A stretch of DNA of 30,512 nt from a virus: the IMG/VR virus record IMGVR_UViG_3300025327_000120, positions 1-30,512 of that record; one strand, given 5' to 3'. The notes below the pieces were generated by a model that saw nothing but the letters and a program-made list of their open reading frames with translations, made no database searches and was not told the origin of the DNA. Each line of letters begins with the position of its first letter. Positions within the stretch are counted from its first letter, which is position 1. Of this stretch, positions 227 to 29,110 are shown piece after piece. Made by a program: the position numbers and the translations under genes.

Positions 227-252
227 CAATCCCCGAGATGGGTTCCCGCCTC

Positions 253-351
253 CAGGAACTCAGGAACGAATCTTTCAGAAATAGCAGTTCCCACGATCGG
301 TTCCCGCCTTAGGGCTCAAGGAGTTACAGCGCTGGGCTCCCTGAGTTCCTG
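253..351. repeat. 12-bp perfect inverted repeat with 75-nt interior
   Basis: CAGGAACTCAGG (253-264) is the exact reverse complement of CCTGAGTTCCTG (340-351). The interior holds one full copy of the 15-mer of the GGTTCC array. The pairing could form as a cruciform or, if transcribed, as an RNA stem. No promoter is obvious upstream of it. Confidence 0.6.
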
Positions 352-354
352 CGT

Positions 355-382
355 CGGTTCCGGGGCCTGACGGCCGGAACCG
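355..382 (+). other. 9-bp hairpin built from two GGTTCC copies
   Basis: CGGTTCCGG (355-363) pairs perfectly with CCGGAACCG (374-382) across a 10-nt loop. The arms are two oppositely oriented members of the GGTTCC array. A dimeric DNA-binding protein would see this as a palindromic site. There is no following T-tract, so it is not a typical terminator. Confidence 0.55.
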
Positions 383-439
383 CAGGCGGGATTGTCCAAT
401 GCTGATGCACACTTACATCGGTTCCGGCCCCATTAATCG

Positions 440-460
440 GAGAGGTAATCAAGACCTCTC
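440..460 (+). other. 7-bp hairpin, no T-tract
   Basis: GAGAGGT (440-446) pairs perfectly with ACCTCTC (454-460) across a 7-nt loop. The sequence after it (TATGAATAAC) lacks a run of T, so intrinsic termination is not supported. It lies between two copies of the GGTTCC motif. Confidence 0.45.
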
Positions 461-714
461 TATGAATAACTATGAGTTCCCATTCCTATACATAAGGAAC
501 CGATGTTTGGGAACCGGAGAGGCATCGAAAAAGGCCCATTTCAGGGGGTTTTCAAAAAGATCGGTTCCCGCCTCGGTTCCCAGCAGTGCCCAGCGCAGGA
601 AACAGCGCTGTTCATCCGCTGTTCACTTCCTAAACCTAGCGGAGTCAGTCCTTTGCGGCCGGGCAGCGGACCGCCTGCCCAGCGCCGCGCCTGGACACAC
701 CATATAGAGCCCAC

Positions 715-744
715 TTGACATAGGGCCCCAACCTGTGGTACTAT
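715..744 (+). promoter_or_regulatory. Sigma70-type promoter upstream of the leader RNA
   Basis: A perfect -35 box TTGACA (715-720) is followed by an 18-nt spacer and TACTAT (739-744) as -10 box, with TGG just before it as an extended -10. The predicted start is near 751, exactly where the 15-bp stem of the leader RNA begins. The same 18-nt spacing is seen at three other intergenic sites in the window. Confidence 0.8.
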
Positions 745-750
745 CCGCTC

Positions 751-898
751 GTGGGTGCAAAGAGGTCCCCCCTGCTCCGGTTCCGGTGGCTTCGGCCATG
801 AGCAATGCTCCGCACTCCCTTCCCTCAGGAGCGCGTCCGGGGCTGTTGAGCACCTCCTCCCCCCTCTTTGCATCCACACTTTCCCTTTTGGAGGAGCC
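751..898 (+). ncRNA. Structured 5' leader RNA, riboswitch-like or independent small RNA
   Basis: The first 15 transcribed bases (751-765) pair with 863-877 along their whole length, with one G-U pair, closing a domain of about 127 nt. Inside are a UUCG-capped stem (786-790/795-799), a GAGC/GCTC hairpin (800-810) and a possible GCTCC/GGAGC stem (807-811/827-831, competing with part of that hairpin). Just before the 3' strand of the closing stem, CTCCTCC (854-860) is a perfect complement of the Shine-Dalgarno GGAGGAG (890-896) of the membrane-protein gene. That pairing would cross the closing stem, so the two could compete or form a pseudoknot. A weak T-rich stretch (880-889) follows. I do not recognise it as a known RNA family. 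A copy of the GGTTCC motif lies at 775-784. Confidence 0.6.
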
Positions 899-1258
899 AT
901 GCCAGTAAAGAATAGTCCCACCCAGATCGTTGTCGGCACCCTGATCGGCCTAGTCCTGTGTCTTGTCTTCTACAACCTCCTGGGCTGGAAGCTCGCCCTT
1001 GGCGCTTGCGGGCTCCTACTCTACGAAGCCTACACCCTGATCAACCGCTTCCCGGAGGATACCATCTCTGAGATCATCTGGGTCTTTTCAAAGCGCCCTA
1101 TGGTCCCCTGGCTCTTTGGCTTGGGGACTGCGTATGCTATAGCGTCTGGGCTGCTCCCGGCCACCCAGGAGAGTCTCTGGATCTCCCTGGCCCTGGGATT
1201 TTTGTCCGGTCACTTCTTCTTCCAGCGTCATGAGGAGTCAAACAATGGGGTTTCTTAA
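899..1258 (+). CDS. Small multi-pass membrane protein, holin-like candidate
   Basis: This 119-residue protein has hydrophobic segments at about residues 10-28, 30-48, 70-88 and 93-110, split by a short charged stretch (around RFPEDT) and a SKRP turn. It ends in a basic/acidic polar tail. Size and topology fit a holin or another phage inner-membrane protein, but the only lysin seen lies more than 10 kb away, so holin is a guess. The start is ATG 899, because GGAGGAG (890-896) precedes it at good spacing. The longer frame beginning at 755 would run through the leader RNA stem and has unnatural composition. It is the first gene after promoter 715-744, so the leader RNA may regulate it. Confidence 0.7.
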   Translation: MPVKNSPTQIVVGTLIGLVLCLVFYNLLGWKLALGACGLLLYEAYTLINRFPEDTISEIIWVFSKRPMVPWLFGLGTAYAIASGLLPATQESLWISLALGFLSGHFFFQRHEESNNGVS

Positions 1259-9410: not shown

Positions 9411-11453
9411 ATGAGACTCCCTGCTGCATTTGAAGAGTACGAGAACCAGATCCTCTCCTACGTGCGCGCCTGCGTGAGCGATGGGATGTCCCTGCTCCGC
9501 AGGGAGCGGGCGTACACCGACATGAACACTGCCATTAAGTTTGTGAATGGGGAGCAGTACCCTCTCCGATCAAGGGCCATCTCACGCCTCGTGGACAACC
9601 GCCTCCGGAAGATCGTGAATGAAACCGTGGGTGCCCTGACCGATGTCCGTCCCATCTGGAACTATGACACCATCGACCCGGATCCTACATTCGTGGAGCA
9701 GGCAGAGATTCTCTCTAAGCTCGCCAGGGGGTGGTGGAAGGGGGGCCTGGTCGACCGGCGTCTCCAGACGATTCTCACCTATGCGATGGTGGGAGGTTCT
9801 GGATATGGGTTCTTGCGGTGGAATAAGGATCTCCCCGGCGGAGGGGATATTGAACTCACACCGCTGGATCCCAGAAACATCATCCCTATCGAGCCGGTGT
9901 ATAGCGACTCCATCCAGGACTGGCGGGGGGTTCTGATTCGCCAAGAGATCCAGATCGAGGATGTGAAGCTCATGTATCCCACCAAGGCATACAAGGTGGG
10001 GGCGAAGAGCCGGTCCTCATGGTTCACCCCGATGACCAAGGAGGGTGGGTCCATCTACAATGTCCTGAGCGCGGCGTGGAGCGTGCTCACGCGCGGGAAT
10101 GAGGGCCGCAACCGGGAACTCCCGAACACAACCGACCTGATGCATATCTTCATCAAGGACGAGAGTGTGAACACCGGCTCCGAGGTGCGCATCATGGGCG
10201 AGCCTGGGACGAATTGGCAATACCCAGTCTTCCCGGTCGGCTCGAAGCACCCCCTCACAGGTGAGGAGGTCACCGAGCTGGAAGCGCGTCTCTACCCAAG
10301 AGGGCGACTCATTGTGTGCACGGAAGAGGCAGTTCTGTCAGACGGCCCCAATCCCTACTGGCACGGGATGTTCCCCCTGATTCGCTTCACCCTGGAGCCT
10401 CTCCCCTGGTCGATCCTGGGGGCTTCGATTATTGGTGACCTGGTGCCCCTTCAGAATGCTCTCAACGAGGGCCTGCGTGGCATCGAAGATGGCACCGCGC
10501 AGTGGCTCAGGAGAGGCGTCGTCGCGGATCAGCACGCGATCTCCAAGACCACTCTGGAGGCCCTAGACACACGGAAGGCTGGATTCAAGGCATACCTGAA
10601 CAACAATGCCGGCGGGGAGGGATTCAAGATCGTCGACGGCCCTGTCTTCCCGGCCTGGTACATGCAGATGTTGGAGTTCTACAAGAGTGAGATGGATGAG
10701 ATCAGCGGTGTGAAGGGTTTGCAACAGCTCGCACAGCTCAAGCAGATGCCTTCTGCCGACACCCTGGAGAAGTTCCGGGAGGCCCTCTCACCCCTCCTGA
10801 AGGTCCGCTCAAGGGCCATGGAGGTAAGCCTGGGCGAGCTAGCGGAACTCCTGAAGGTGAACTTCTTCCAGTTCTACAACACGAAACGCCGGCTGGAGAT
10901 CCTTGGGAAGGATGGCGTCACCCTTGAGGACTTCGACTACGACCCTGGCAGCCTTGTGCCGGCGGGCACGCCGACTGAAACCACCACCAGGGAGGACAGA
11001 GCGAAGAAGCATCATAAGAGTTTCAAATTCAGCGTTGCACCCAACTCCTTCCTTGCAGTGAGCCACACGGAGCAGAAGATGCTTATTCTGCAGATGTTCC
11101 GGGAGCAGATCATGGATCCTTGGTCCCTGTGGGAGGCGATGGATGTCGCCAACACTGGACCAGTTCCGGCGGAGACGGTCCCGGAGCGCATTGTGGCGGC
11201 CCGGAAGATAGGCTTGATGGAAGGCCCAACCCCGGAGATGGTGCAGATGCAGCAGCAACTCCAGACGATGCAGCTTCAGCTTCAACTGATGCAGATGCAG
11301 GCGATGGCAGCTGGAATGGGAGGGGCTCCCCCGGAAGGTGGTCCGCCTCCTGAAATCCCAGGGAAGGGCCCTGGGCGGCCTCCTAGCGGTCAGGAGCCCC
11401 CACAGCTCATCCAAAAGGGTGGTAGCCCTGTGGTGAGTGAAAGCGGGCGATGA
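9411..11453 (+). CDS. Portal protein
   Basis: The 680-residue product fits a phage portal, the dodecameric ring at the head vertex through which DNA passes. The N-terminus is helical with a conserved-looking FVNGEQYPLR and VNETVGALTDVRP; DPRNIIPI and WRGVLIRQEI mark the wing region. A long helical stem follows (EMDEISGVKGLQQL, then FREALSPLLKVRSRAMEV). The final 75 residues are low complexity: a Gln/Met run (QMQQQLQTMQLQLQLMQMQ) and a Pro/Gly-rich tail. Position before scaffold and capsid supports the call. An AGAGGTTG site precedes ATG 9411. Its size is closer to P22-like or T7-like portals than to small siphovirus portals. Confidence 0.85.
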   Translation: MRLPAAFEEYENQILSYVRACVSDGMSLLRRERAYTDMNTAIKFVNGEQYPLRSRAISRLVDNRLRKIVNETVGALTDVRPIWNYDTIDPDPTFVEQAEILSKLARGWWKGGLVDRRLQTILTYAMVGGSGYGFLRWNKDLPGGGDIELTPLDPRNIIPIEPVYSDSIQDWRGVLIRQEIQIEDVKLMYPTKAYKVGAKSRSSWFTPMTKEGGSIYNVLSAAWSVLTRGNEGRNRELPNTTDLMHIFIKDESVNTGSEVRIMGEPGTNWQYPVFPVGSKHPLTGEEVTELEARLYPRGRLIVCTEEAVLSDGPNPYWHGMFPLIRFTLEPLPWSILGASIIGDLVPLQNALNEGLRGIEDGTAQWLRRGVVADQHAISKTTLEALDTRKAGFKAYLNNNAGGEGFKIVDGPVFPAWYMQMLEFYKSEMDEISGVKGLQQLAQLKQMPSADTLEKFREALSPLLKVRSRAMEVSLGELAELLKVNFFQFYNTKRRLEILGKDGVTLEDFDYDPGSLVPAGTPTETTTREDRAKKHHKSFKFSVAPNSFLAVSHTEQKMLILQMFREQIMDPWSLWEAMDVANTGPVPAETVPERIVAARKIGLMEGPTPEMVQMQQQLQTMQLQLQLMQMQAMAAGMGGAPPEGGPPPEIPGKGPGRPPSGQEPPQLIQKGGSPVVSESGR

Positions 11454-27087: not shown

Positions 27088-28301
27088 TGGGTTTCTGGGA
27101 TATCGCAAAGAGAGTTGCCCTTGGCGCAGCGACTGGTGGGCTGAGCCACGTCAAGGACATCAGGGACGCTACGAAGAAGCGCAAGGATAAGGGGACGTCT
27201 GCGAAGGCGCCTGAGGCTGAGGCCCAGCAAGCTCCTGCCCCTGGAGGACCCTCGATTGAGCAGTTGATGGCCATTGATCCCTCCATCTCCCGTGGGCAGT
27301 GGGAGGCTCAAATGGCAGAGCAACAGGCGGAGGGAGGCTTCGATCCGAACTGTCCGCCTGATCGGCCATTCAAGTCAGGGCGACCCATCCAGGGGGCAGC
27401 AGGACCAGTTGACAACTGCGTGGAGAAGCGTGAGAACTGCCCTCCAGGATTCAGGGTTATCGGCTCCGATGACAGGGGCGACGCGCGATGCTTGCCTGGA
27501 GATGCTAGGGAGTTTGGCGGACCTGGCGGTGGTGGTGGGCGCGGTGGTCGCGGCGGAGGTCCTGGAGGCGACGCAGGCATGCCCGGTGGGAACATGTGGG
27601 GTGGCTACGATGACATGACCGGCCAGGCCATGAGCCAGCTCTACGGTACACCCTTCTACGGCCCGGAAGAGGGGATGCTCAGGGACTACTATGCTGGGAT
27701 CATGGGGAAGAAGTGGGATCCCACGAGTGGGCAGTATGTGGACACTGGATCAACCGCTCAGCTGGCGGCTGCGACGGGCGCCGAGCAGAATGCCCTTCGA
27801 GAGAGTATCGAAGGGCAGGTTCAGCAGGTCATGCAGACGATGCCACCGGGCGGGCAGCGGGATAAGATGATCGCGGACCTTCGAGCGCAGCAACAGTCAC
27901 TCGCAGCACAGTCACGGCAGGGCGCGATTCAAGGGGCCACGGCAGGACTCACTGACCTCTACGGGCGGCGCCTTGATGTTGCAGGGAATGTCCTGGGCCA
28001 AGGCACTGAGCGGTTTGGAATTGAAACCACGCGGCGTGGGCAGGACATTGGCTTTGACATCGCACAGCTCGAAGACAAGACACGTCGGGAGCTTGGTCTT
28101 GGTGAGCTTGGACTGCAGAGGGAGCGATTCGGTTTTGAGACCGGCACCGCCTTCCCCTGGGAGCAGAAGAAGTTCATGCTGGAGCAAAAGCAGCGTGGTC
28201 AAGAAGGGAAGTCTGCACAACAGCAGTCCAGACGAGCGGGCACAATGAGTGCCCTGGGCACTGTGGCCTCCATTGGAGGCACCGTGGCGATTGCTCTGTG
28301 A
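27087..28301 (+). CDS. Putative internal virion (ejection) protein with Cys motifs, 404 aa
   Basis: The N-terminus (1-20) is hydrophobic and Gly-rich (ALGAATGGL), followed by a basic/acidic linker. Residues 89-111 and 118-135 hold two cysteine pairs (CPPD...NC and CPPGFR...RC); the second spacing is C-x16-C. A Gly-rich hinge (142-170) precedes a long Gln/Ala/Arg helical region (230-390). This layout of small hydrophobic start, flexible middle and long helices is common in internal proteins ejected with DNA. The start is ATG 27087 because GGAG lies upstream and the first residues fit. The pattern is an inference, not a family match. Confidence 0.55.
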   Translation: MGFWDIAKRVALGAATGGLSHVKDIRDATKKRKDKGTSAKAPEAEAQQAPAPGGPSIEQLMAIDPSISRGQWEAQMAEQQAEGGFDPNCPPDRPFKSGRPIQGAAGPVDNCVEKRENCPPGFRVIGSDDRGDARCLPGDAREFGGPGGGGGRGGRGGGPGGDAGMPGGNMWGGYDDMTGQAMSQLYGTPFYGPEEGMLRDYYAGIMGKKWDPTSGQYVDTGSTAQLAAATGAEQNALRESIEGQVQQVMQTMPPGGQRDKMIADLRAQQQSLAAQSRQGAIQGATAGLTDLYGRRLDVAGNVLGQGTERFGIETTRRGQDIGFDIAQLEDKTRRELGLGELGLQRERFGFETGTAFPWEQKKFMLEQKQRGQEGKSAQQQSRRAGTMSALGTVASIGGTVAIAL

Positions 28302-29110
28302 TGCTCAAGGAGAAGGTTGACGCTGCGGTTGGGTTGATTCAAGAGGTGGTGGAAGAGCACGTGAATCCAGTGGTGATGTCCAGTTTCGGGAAGGACTCAA
28401 TGGTGCTTCTGGACTTGGTGAAGAGAGCTGGGTTTCGCCTTCCGATTCTCTTCTTCAAGGAGTCCTACTTCCCCAGGAAGTACCACTTCGCCAATCAGGT
28501 GATCGAGGCGAATGACTATGTGGTCTATGACTACCCACCTCTAGAGACGGCATTCTTTAAGCGAAACGGGAAGGTTGAGGTGTATAACTTCTACCAGTCC
28601 GTGAACAAGCCCATTGGATTGCCAACTGGGATCAAGGTGCCAAAGGCAGGGGAGGATTACCTCTGTGCGCTGTCTGCCCTCTACGGTAAGCCGACTGGGA
28701 CATATGACTTCCAATGGGATGCTGCATTCATCGGGCACAAGGCCACGGATGTGGATCCCCTCCTTGGTCCTGTTCCTATCCATAATGATCGCGTGGAGGC
28801 ACCTGAGGAGCTGCATCTGGCTTTTCCCCTGAGGAGCTTCACTGATGCAGACATCTGGGAGTATCACTTAGAGAACCACCTGCCGATAAACCGGCAGCGG
28901 TATAATGAGGCTGATAACTGGAGGGAGTTTGATGATGTCACCTACAATCCTGACTACTTCCCAGCCTGCACAGCGTGCATGGACTTGGACCAGGGTACTA
29001 AGGTCTACTGTCCAAAGGTTGGAGCGATGGTCGAGAGCGTTTCATCGCAACTACGTGATATGAACAATACCTCCCTACCTGCGTACATGACTGAAGTTGA
29101 GGTGAAGTAA
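28301..29110 (+). CDS. PP-loop ATPase, PAPS-reductase-like
   Basis: The 269-residue product has the N-type ATP pyrophosphatase motif SSFGKDS (27-33; consensus SGGKDS) at the end of a strand (NPVVMSSFGKDSMVLLDLV, split here). Helix-strand repeats follow (RLPILFFKESYFPRKY) and a downstream AFPLRSFTDADIWEY as in PAPS reductase and related enzymes. A CTAC...C...C cluster near 222-238 could bind metal or act as redox cysteines. The enzyme class uses an adenylated sulfur donor or activates a substrate by AMP. The start is ATG 28301 (TGATG with the upstream stop); GTG 28298 is an alternative. Its place between two internal-protein genes is unusual. Confidence 0.72.
   Translation: MLKEKVDAAVGLIQEVVEEHVNPVVMSSFGKDSMVLLDLVKRAGFRLPILFFKESYFPRKYHFANQVIEANDYVVYDYPPLETAFFKRNGKVEVYNFYQSVNKPIGLPTGIKVPKAGEDYLCALSALYGKPTGTYDFQWDAAFIGHKATDVDPLLGPVPIHNDRVEAPEELHLAFPLRSFTDADIWEYHLENHLPINRQRYNEADNWREFDDVTYNPDYFPACTACMDLDQGTKVYCPKVGAMVESVSSQLRDMNNTSLPAYMTEVEVK

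Follow-up and report, generated by a model that had tools for sequence, protein, structure and literature searches.

A covarying RNA domain at the predicted 5' end of the late-operon transcript in a lineage of tailed phages

Positions 751-877 of the 30,512-base virus record analysed here (hereafter the window) are best read as the 5'-terminal domain of the late-operon transcript, one that represents a new phage leader-RNA family. The existence, strand, position and conservation of this domain were computed here. Its closing stem is under selection as plus-strand RNA, independently of its sequence, and the leader is almost certainly a real conserved RNA. Since the stems share no letters, the family is invisible to sequence search despite strong covariation, and was found only by means of its position at a promoter start and its shape.

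The window belongs to a tailed phage that encodes a P22-like portal, a large terminase, a SleB-type hydrolase and a major head protein. Only two annotated phages, both Tunturiibacter phages, showed a portal match, at approximately 25% identity. Genes 3' of position 751 lie on the plus strand. In the relative G007 (50.6 kb), which is arranged as the window is, the leader stands at the head of approximately 35 kb of plus-strand late genes, beyond which lies a block of minus-strand genes. Directly 5' of the terminase gene, positions 1861-2751 encode a conserved protein whose CxxC zinc motif is DnaJ/Anti-TRAP-like (Pfam PF15777, below cut-off); the protein occurs in the relatives aligned and is probably the small terminase. 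The late genes also include one for a PAPS-reductase-domain protein (28298-29110). The features of the leader and of the beginning of the operon are as follows.

715-744, plus strand: late-operon promoter with -35 TTGACA (715-720), an 18-nt spacer, TG before the -10, and -10 TACTAT (739-744); 10 of 12 consensus positions match, and the relatives have the same promoter type at the same place
751, plus strand: predicted transcription start G751, where the closing stem begins, 7 nt past the -10; the stems of the relatives start 4-11 nt past it
751-765, plus strand: 5' arm of the closing stem, from fold and covariation
766-772, plus strand: C-rich unpaired strand UCCCCCC, 5' side of the bubble in both MFE and centroid folds
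773-852, plus strand: branched apical domain containing a UUCG-capped hairpin at 787-798, from the fold; variable between members
853-860, plus strand: CCTCCTCC, an anti-Shine-Dalgarno motif left unpaired in the 3' strand of the bubble, with unpaired probability 1.00 in the window; CCTCC is enriched among members
863-877, plus strand: 3' arm of the closing stem, from fold and covariation
890-896, plus strand: GGAGGAG, by its sequence the ribosome site that serves the first late gene, 12 nt past the stem
899-1258, plus strand: first late-operon gene, encoding a small membrane protein of 119 aa
1604-1864, plus strand: gene of a small MGLF-type protein, a homologue of which lies directly 3' of the leader in L019, L021 and L100

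An earlier sequence-only reading had described most of this architecture. The promoter that it placed at 715-744, with a start near 751, was recovered as TTGACA and TACTAT with G751 seven bases past the -10, the start being a prediction. The closed domain was likewise found, 751-765 pairing with 863-877 in a 15-bp stem of 14 Watson-Crick pairs and one G-U, as were the UUCG-capped stem between the arms and the complementary CTCCTCC (854-860) and GGAGGAG (890-896). The folding energy of 751-877 is -61.5 kcal/mol (z -5.07), and none of 200 shuffles was as good. A search for a terminator 3' of 877 in the window found none. Shuffles of the window also reach stems of 13-18 bp when G-U is allowed, so a 15-bp stem somewhere in 30 kb is unremarkable, and CTCCTCC is present in 11% of 751-877 shuffles. 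What goes beyond chance is the position of the stem, the fold and their recurrence in eleven independent phages, not the 15-bp stem or CTCCTCC by itself. That the leader is merely C-rich and folds by chance is therefore hardly credible: chance alone yields long G-U-tolerant stems in the window, but not an eleven-fold recurrence at the same promoter together with the covariation, G-U bias and z-scores described below.

Relatives were collected by means of terminase and small-terminase alignments, which gave approximately 20 loci of one lineage, all of them metagenomic. These loci were scanned jointly for a long stem shortly 3' of a sigma-70-type promoter, and stem boundaries were picked by the analyst from these scans. 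A blastn against phages identified no DNA-level homologues, and searches with the membrane protein and the capsid identified no relatives. An exact 16-mer of the 5' arm was rejected as a homologue finder since it matched only unrelated phage genes.

A leader was found 5' of the late operon in the window and in L110, L111, L112/L113, L019, L021/L102, L099, L100, L115, L116 and L122. As L112 and L113 are identical in sequence and L021 and L102 are close, this amounts to eleven independent members including the window. The terminases of these phages are mostly 45-59% identical to that of the window. All eleven share one plan, in which a sigma-70-type promoter is followed by a stem of approximately 9-20 bp at or near the start and then by the first late gene, with a domain of 55-146 nt. 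The stems of L115 and L116 are shorter, with nine perfect or near-perfect pairs up to the first interruption, and that of L122 has 20 positions. No leader was found in the 3.1 kb that its contig holds upstream in L109 (terminase 71% identical), nor in L118 (43%). In L103 (668-742) and L104 (342-416) the leader slot, shortly 3' of the late promoter, holds a tRNA-Met (CAT) gene, with a ribosome site a few bases past the CCA of the tRNA.

Since members were partly found by searching for stems, background, arm-swap and G-U tests were made. Pair counts were made by script because MAFFT aligned the stem arms out of register. Over the 12 outermost stem positions 94.7% are paired, versus 41% once the 5' arm of one member is matched with the 3' arm of another, and none of 100,000 arm-swap permutations reached the observed pairing. 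The mean pairwise identity of the 5' arms is 25%, which is chance level. With scoring blind to G-U, the non-Watson-Crick stem positions comprise 13 G-U, 2 A-C and 1 other, against 245 G-U, 258 A-C and 985 other in random stems from the same contigs. This bias of G-U over A-C relative to the background shows that the stem was selected as plus-strand RNA. The plus-strand fold is stronger than shuffles in 12 of 12 sequences (z -2.7 to -8.1), and the minus-strand z is weaker than the plus-strand z in every member; together with the G-U bias this rules out a minus-strand RNA or a DNA palindrome. Covariation in homologues, one of the checks by which the idea of a closed domain was originally to stand or fall, was thus found.

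The domain is specific to the late promoter. For a random 6-nt window, the chance that a stem starts there is approximately 0.011 at a score of at least 10 and approximately 0.0015 at score 14, the level of the window. Other strong (TTGACA) promoters in the same genomes have no such stem, apart from one weaker match at 10191 of the window, on its minus strand. A strict scan of 1.7 Mb of loci on both strands gave nine matches, six of them at the late promoter of the lineage (five independent); its controls gave 1 match in shuffles and 1 to 6 in windows offset from real promoters.

Rfam 15 was searched with a covariance-model score at or above the gathering threshold as criterion. The whole window gave no match, a permissive search of 700-920 gave weak matches only, far below threshold, and among 13 relatives only the tRNAs of L103 and L104 were identified. 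No 6S RNA model matched in the window, in 700-920 or in the 13 relatives. The RNA is hence of no family recognised by Rfam, in the window or as leader in the relatives, in line with the first impression of the sequence. A conserved leader peptide was ruled out: the leader frame is open in the window, L019, L110, L111, L116 and L122 and is blocked by stops in L099, L115, L112, L100 and L021. In L111 (1939-1942) and L122 (1993-1995) an ATG lies within the first stem bases, at or next to the predicted start. It shares the reading frame of the first gene, and translation in these two could begin leaderless, within the RNA.

The second recurring feature is an unpaired CCUCC, which was found in nine of the eleven members. 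CCUCC is the core of the 16S anti-Shine-Dalgarno sequence and pairs with GGAGG. Inside the domains CCTCC occurs 24 times, versus 5.1 +/- 2.2 expected from base composition, and the unpaired probability of CCUCC is 0.92 (pooled over the nine members) versus 0.39 for the remaining interior. The window has CCTCCTCCCC once, and other members have CCUCC repeats with varied flanks. L021/L102 and L122 have the stem and lack CCUCC. Two other candidates were set aside. A rut/Rho site was rejected on the grounds that CCUCC is enriched and C-richness as such is not (CCCCC occurs 9 times versus 9.2 expected). A phi29-type pRNA was set aside by reasoning, the terminase being of the long kind and CCUCC unable to pair with itself.

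Most members have a strong SD approximately 10 nt past the stem (often 9-13 nt), so a pseudoknot in cis is possible, and such spacing would suit the switch of the first gene that the sequence-only reading had in mind, in which a ligand, a protein or temperature would choose between the closing stem and CTCCTCC:GGAGGAG. The 7-nt complement in the window is perfect, and inspection shows similar 7-8-nt complements in L100, L115 and L116. In a nested model, however, that pairing requires the closing stem to open, at a cost of 12.2 kcal/mol; the two pairings can therefore hardly compete by exchange, and only a pseudoknot could hold both. Nor is there co-adaptation between loop and SD, the loop pairing no better with its own SD than with those of other members (permutation p 0.37). 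A conserved ligand-pocket sequence is lacking as well, and the switch is inapplicable to L110, L111 and L122. The first genes themselves differ between relatives, encoding a membrane protein, a zinc-ribbon protein, a small hydrophobic peptide or an MGLF-type protein, while the RNA stays. We consider the switch improbable, and a control element specific to a holin-like gene is not supported; the membrane protein of the window was searched against Pfam and PHROG and matched neither. Of the sequence-only interpretation, a plus-strand RNA domain sealed at the predicted start and leading an operon stands. The masking of one gene's ribosome site has partial support at best, given the differing first genes, the lack of co-adaptation and the fact that in L110 and L111 CCUCC is retained with no SD close by on its 3' side. 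The other option of that interpretation, a discrete small RNA, may yet apply, although no terminator lies 3' of 877.

Members have the stem in common, and usually CCUCC, whereas the first gene changes, so the function of the domain lies with the late transcript and not with one gene. We favour, with a probability of roughly 0.5, a sealed and stabilising leader of the long late transcript, the anti-SD loop of which moderates initiation. The first transcribed nucleotides, as predicted from the promoters, are paired in all members, the stem beginning at or near +1. By pairing the first predicted base of the late mRNA, the stem would seal its end and keep pyrophosphohydrolase and 5'-end-dependent nucleases off this very long message. 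Paired 5' ends are described to hinder RppH and 5'-tethered RNase E and to stabilise mRNA (PMC3997798). The CCUCC loop would pair transiently with GGAGG-type ribosome sites, first with the one approximately 10 nt past the stem, and this pairing, a pseudoknot, could moderate initiation. We infer all three of start site, stabilisation and loop target; sealing is the better supported half of the mechanism and the cis target of the loop the weaker one. Stability alone needs no CCUCC, so sealing leaves one of the two conserved features unexplained. CCUCC without a nearby SD (L110, L111) and the stem without CCUCC (L021, L122) count against this mechanism, and the tRNA-Met in the leader slot of L103 and L104 counts against sealing, a tRNA being not obviously a 5' seal.

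The same tRNA gene fills the slot much as though separate RNA products belonged there, and this bears on a trans-acting anti-SD RNA, cut from the late transcript or remaining as a stable 5' fragment, whose CCUCC loops would pair with ribosome sites of host or phage mRNAs. The absence of a particular match between the loop and its own SD would fit such an RNA, as would the variable stems with a kept unpaired CCUCC, a plan like that of the alpha-r14 sRNAs. It nevertheless seems unlikely, if worth serious consideration: no terminator or evident processing site lies past 877, cis leaders are usually built in this way, as a single copy per transcript at the mRNA 5' end, and the phage's own genes use AGGAG/GGAGG ribosome sites, which would make its messages targets of a free anti-SD RNA too. 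The more specific idea of a late-expressed phage mimic of the ribosomal anti-SD, a processed stable RNA whose CCUCC occupies ribosome sites in trans and redirects host translation, is slightly more doubtful still. If the loop does act in trans, it would give the phage a route to control host translation.

The alpha-r14 sRNAs are hairpins with variable stems and fixed CCUCCUCCC loops that silence mRNAs at the ribosome site (PMC10746234, PMC3927594). As a group, the anti-SD sRNAs of Alphaproteobacteria (alpha-r14/NfeR1 and CcsR, 'cuckoo') resemble the leader in carrying an unpaired CCUCC-type motif on sequence-free stems (PMC10746234, PMC3927594). They differ in being trans-acting, with three or four hairpins, several of which have the same CCUCCUCCC loop, whereas the leader is one domain with a single closing stem and forms the 5' end of a late phage mRNA, without a terminator and with CCUCC but no fixed CCUCCUCCC, and the genomes are unrelated.

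An RNA antiterminator, a nascent domain that would bind RNA polymerase as HK022 putRNA does and carry it through the terminators of the late operon, is a rather unlikely, though live, alternative. The location directly after the promoter, independent of the first gene and ahead of a very long operon, would be apt; in HK022, putL is found just 3' of its promoter, and terminators 10 kb or more distant are within reach of put (PMC9378689). The putRNAs, of approximately 70 nt, share sequence and two stem-loops (PMC9378689) and contact the beta' zinc-binding domain. The leader resembles them as a structured RNA directly 3' of a phage promoter that heads a long operon. In contrast to them it has a single closing stem, a length of 55-146 nt, a stem sequence that is random between members and CCUCC as recurring motif.

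The sealed, stabilising leader resembles in layout the 5' stabilising stem-loops of bacterial mRNAs, such as ompA-like leaders and the 5' hairpin appended to bla, with which it shares paired first bases, a short spacer and a ribosome site behind. Its domain is larger and is kept across a phage lineage, and we know of no conserved anti-SD loop described for 5'-terminal stabilising stem-loops. Riboswitches of the SAM-II and preQ1 type sequester the SD in a pseudoknot, and the leader has the same topology, its closed stem enclosing a segment that can pair with an SD further 3'; unlike them it has no conserved binding-pocket sequence, a stem of 9-20 bp, varied first genes and no Rfam match. Two devices that are each known, an anti-SD loop and a sealed 5' end of an mRNA, are combined here at the start of a giant phage operon. 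For phages without cultured hosts, this makes control of late genes at the RNA level open to test in a concrete case.

Further elements were observed 5' of the late promoter. A G-rich run (GGGGGTAGGGGGTGGG-like) followed by T runs, and often also by TCAACAACTTA, lies at 140-220 of the window; the run recurs in L115, L116, L102, L103, L112, L019, L100 and L118 and is a candidate origin or packaging signal. Upstream hairpins in L116 (384-451) and L103 (388-500) both hold TGATTCTAAAGGA inside unrelated stems and are possibly a second conserved element. Finally, an AT-rich element of TATATA type lies approximately 165-250 nt 5' of the late promoter (window 230-580, L019 1369-1500, L100 280-400, L111 1579-1700), flanked by inverted repeats and by repeated family-specific sites (CGGTTCC in the window, GGAACCTGTCC in L019, GGTACTTGTCC in L100 and TGATCC in L111). 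Mispairs in these inverted repeats have no G-U bias, and the flanks are therefore probably sites at the DNA level, such as an operator or a replication origin.
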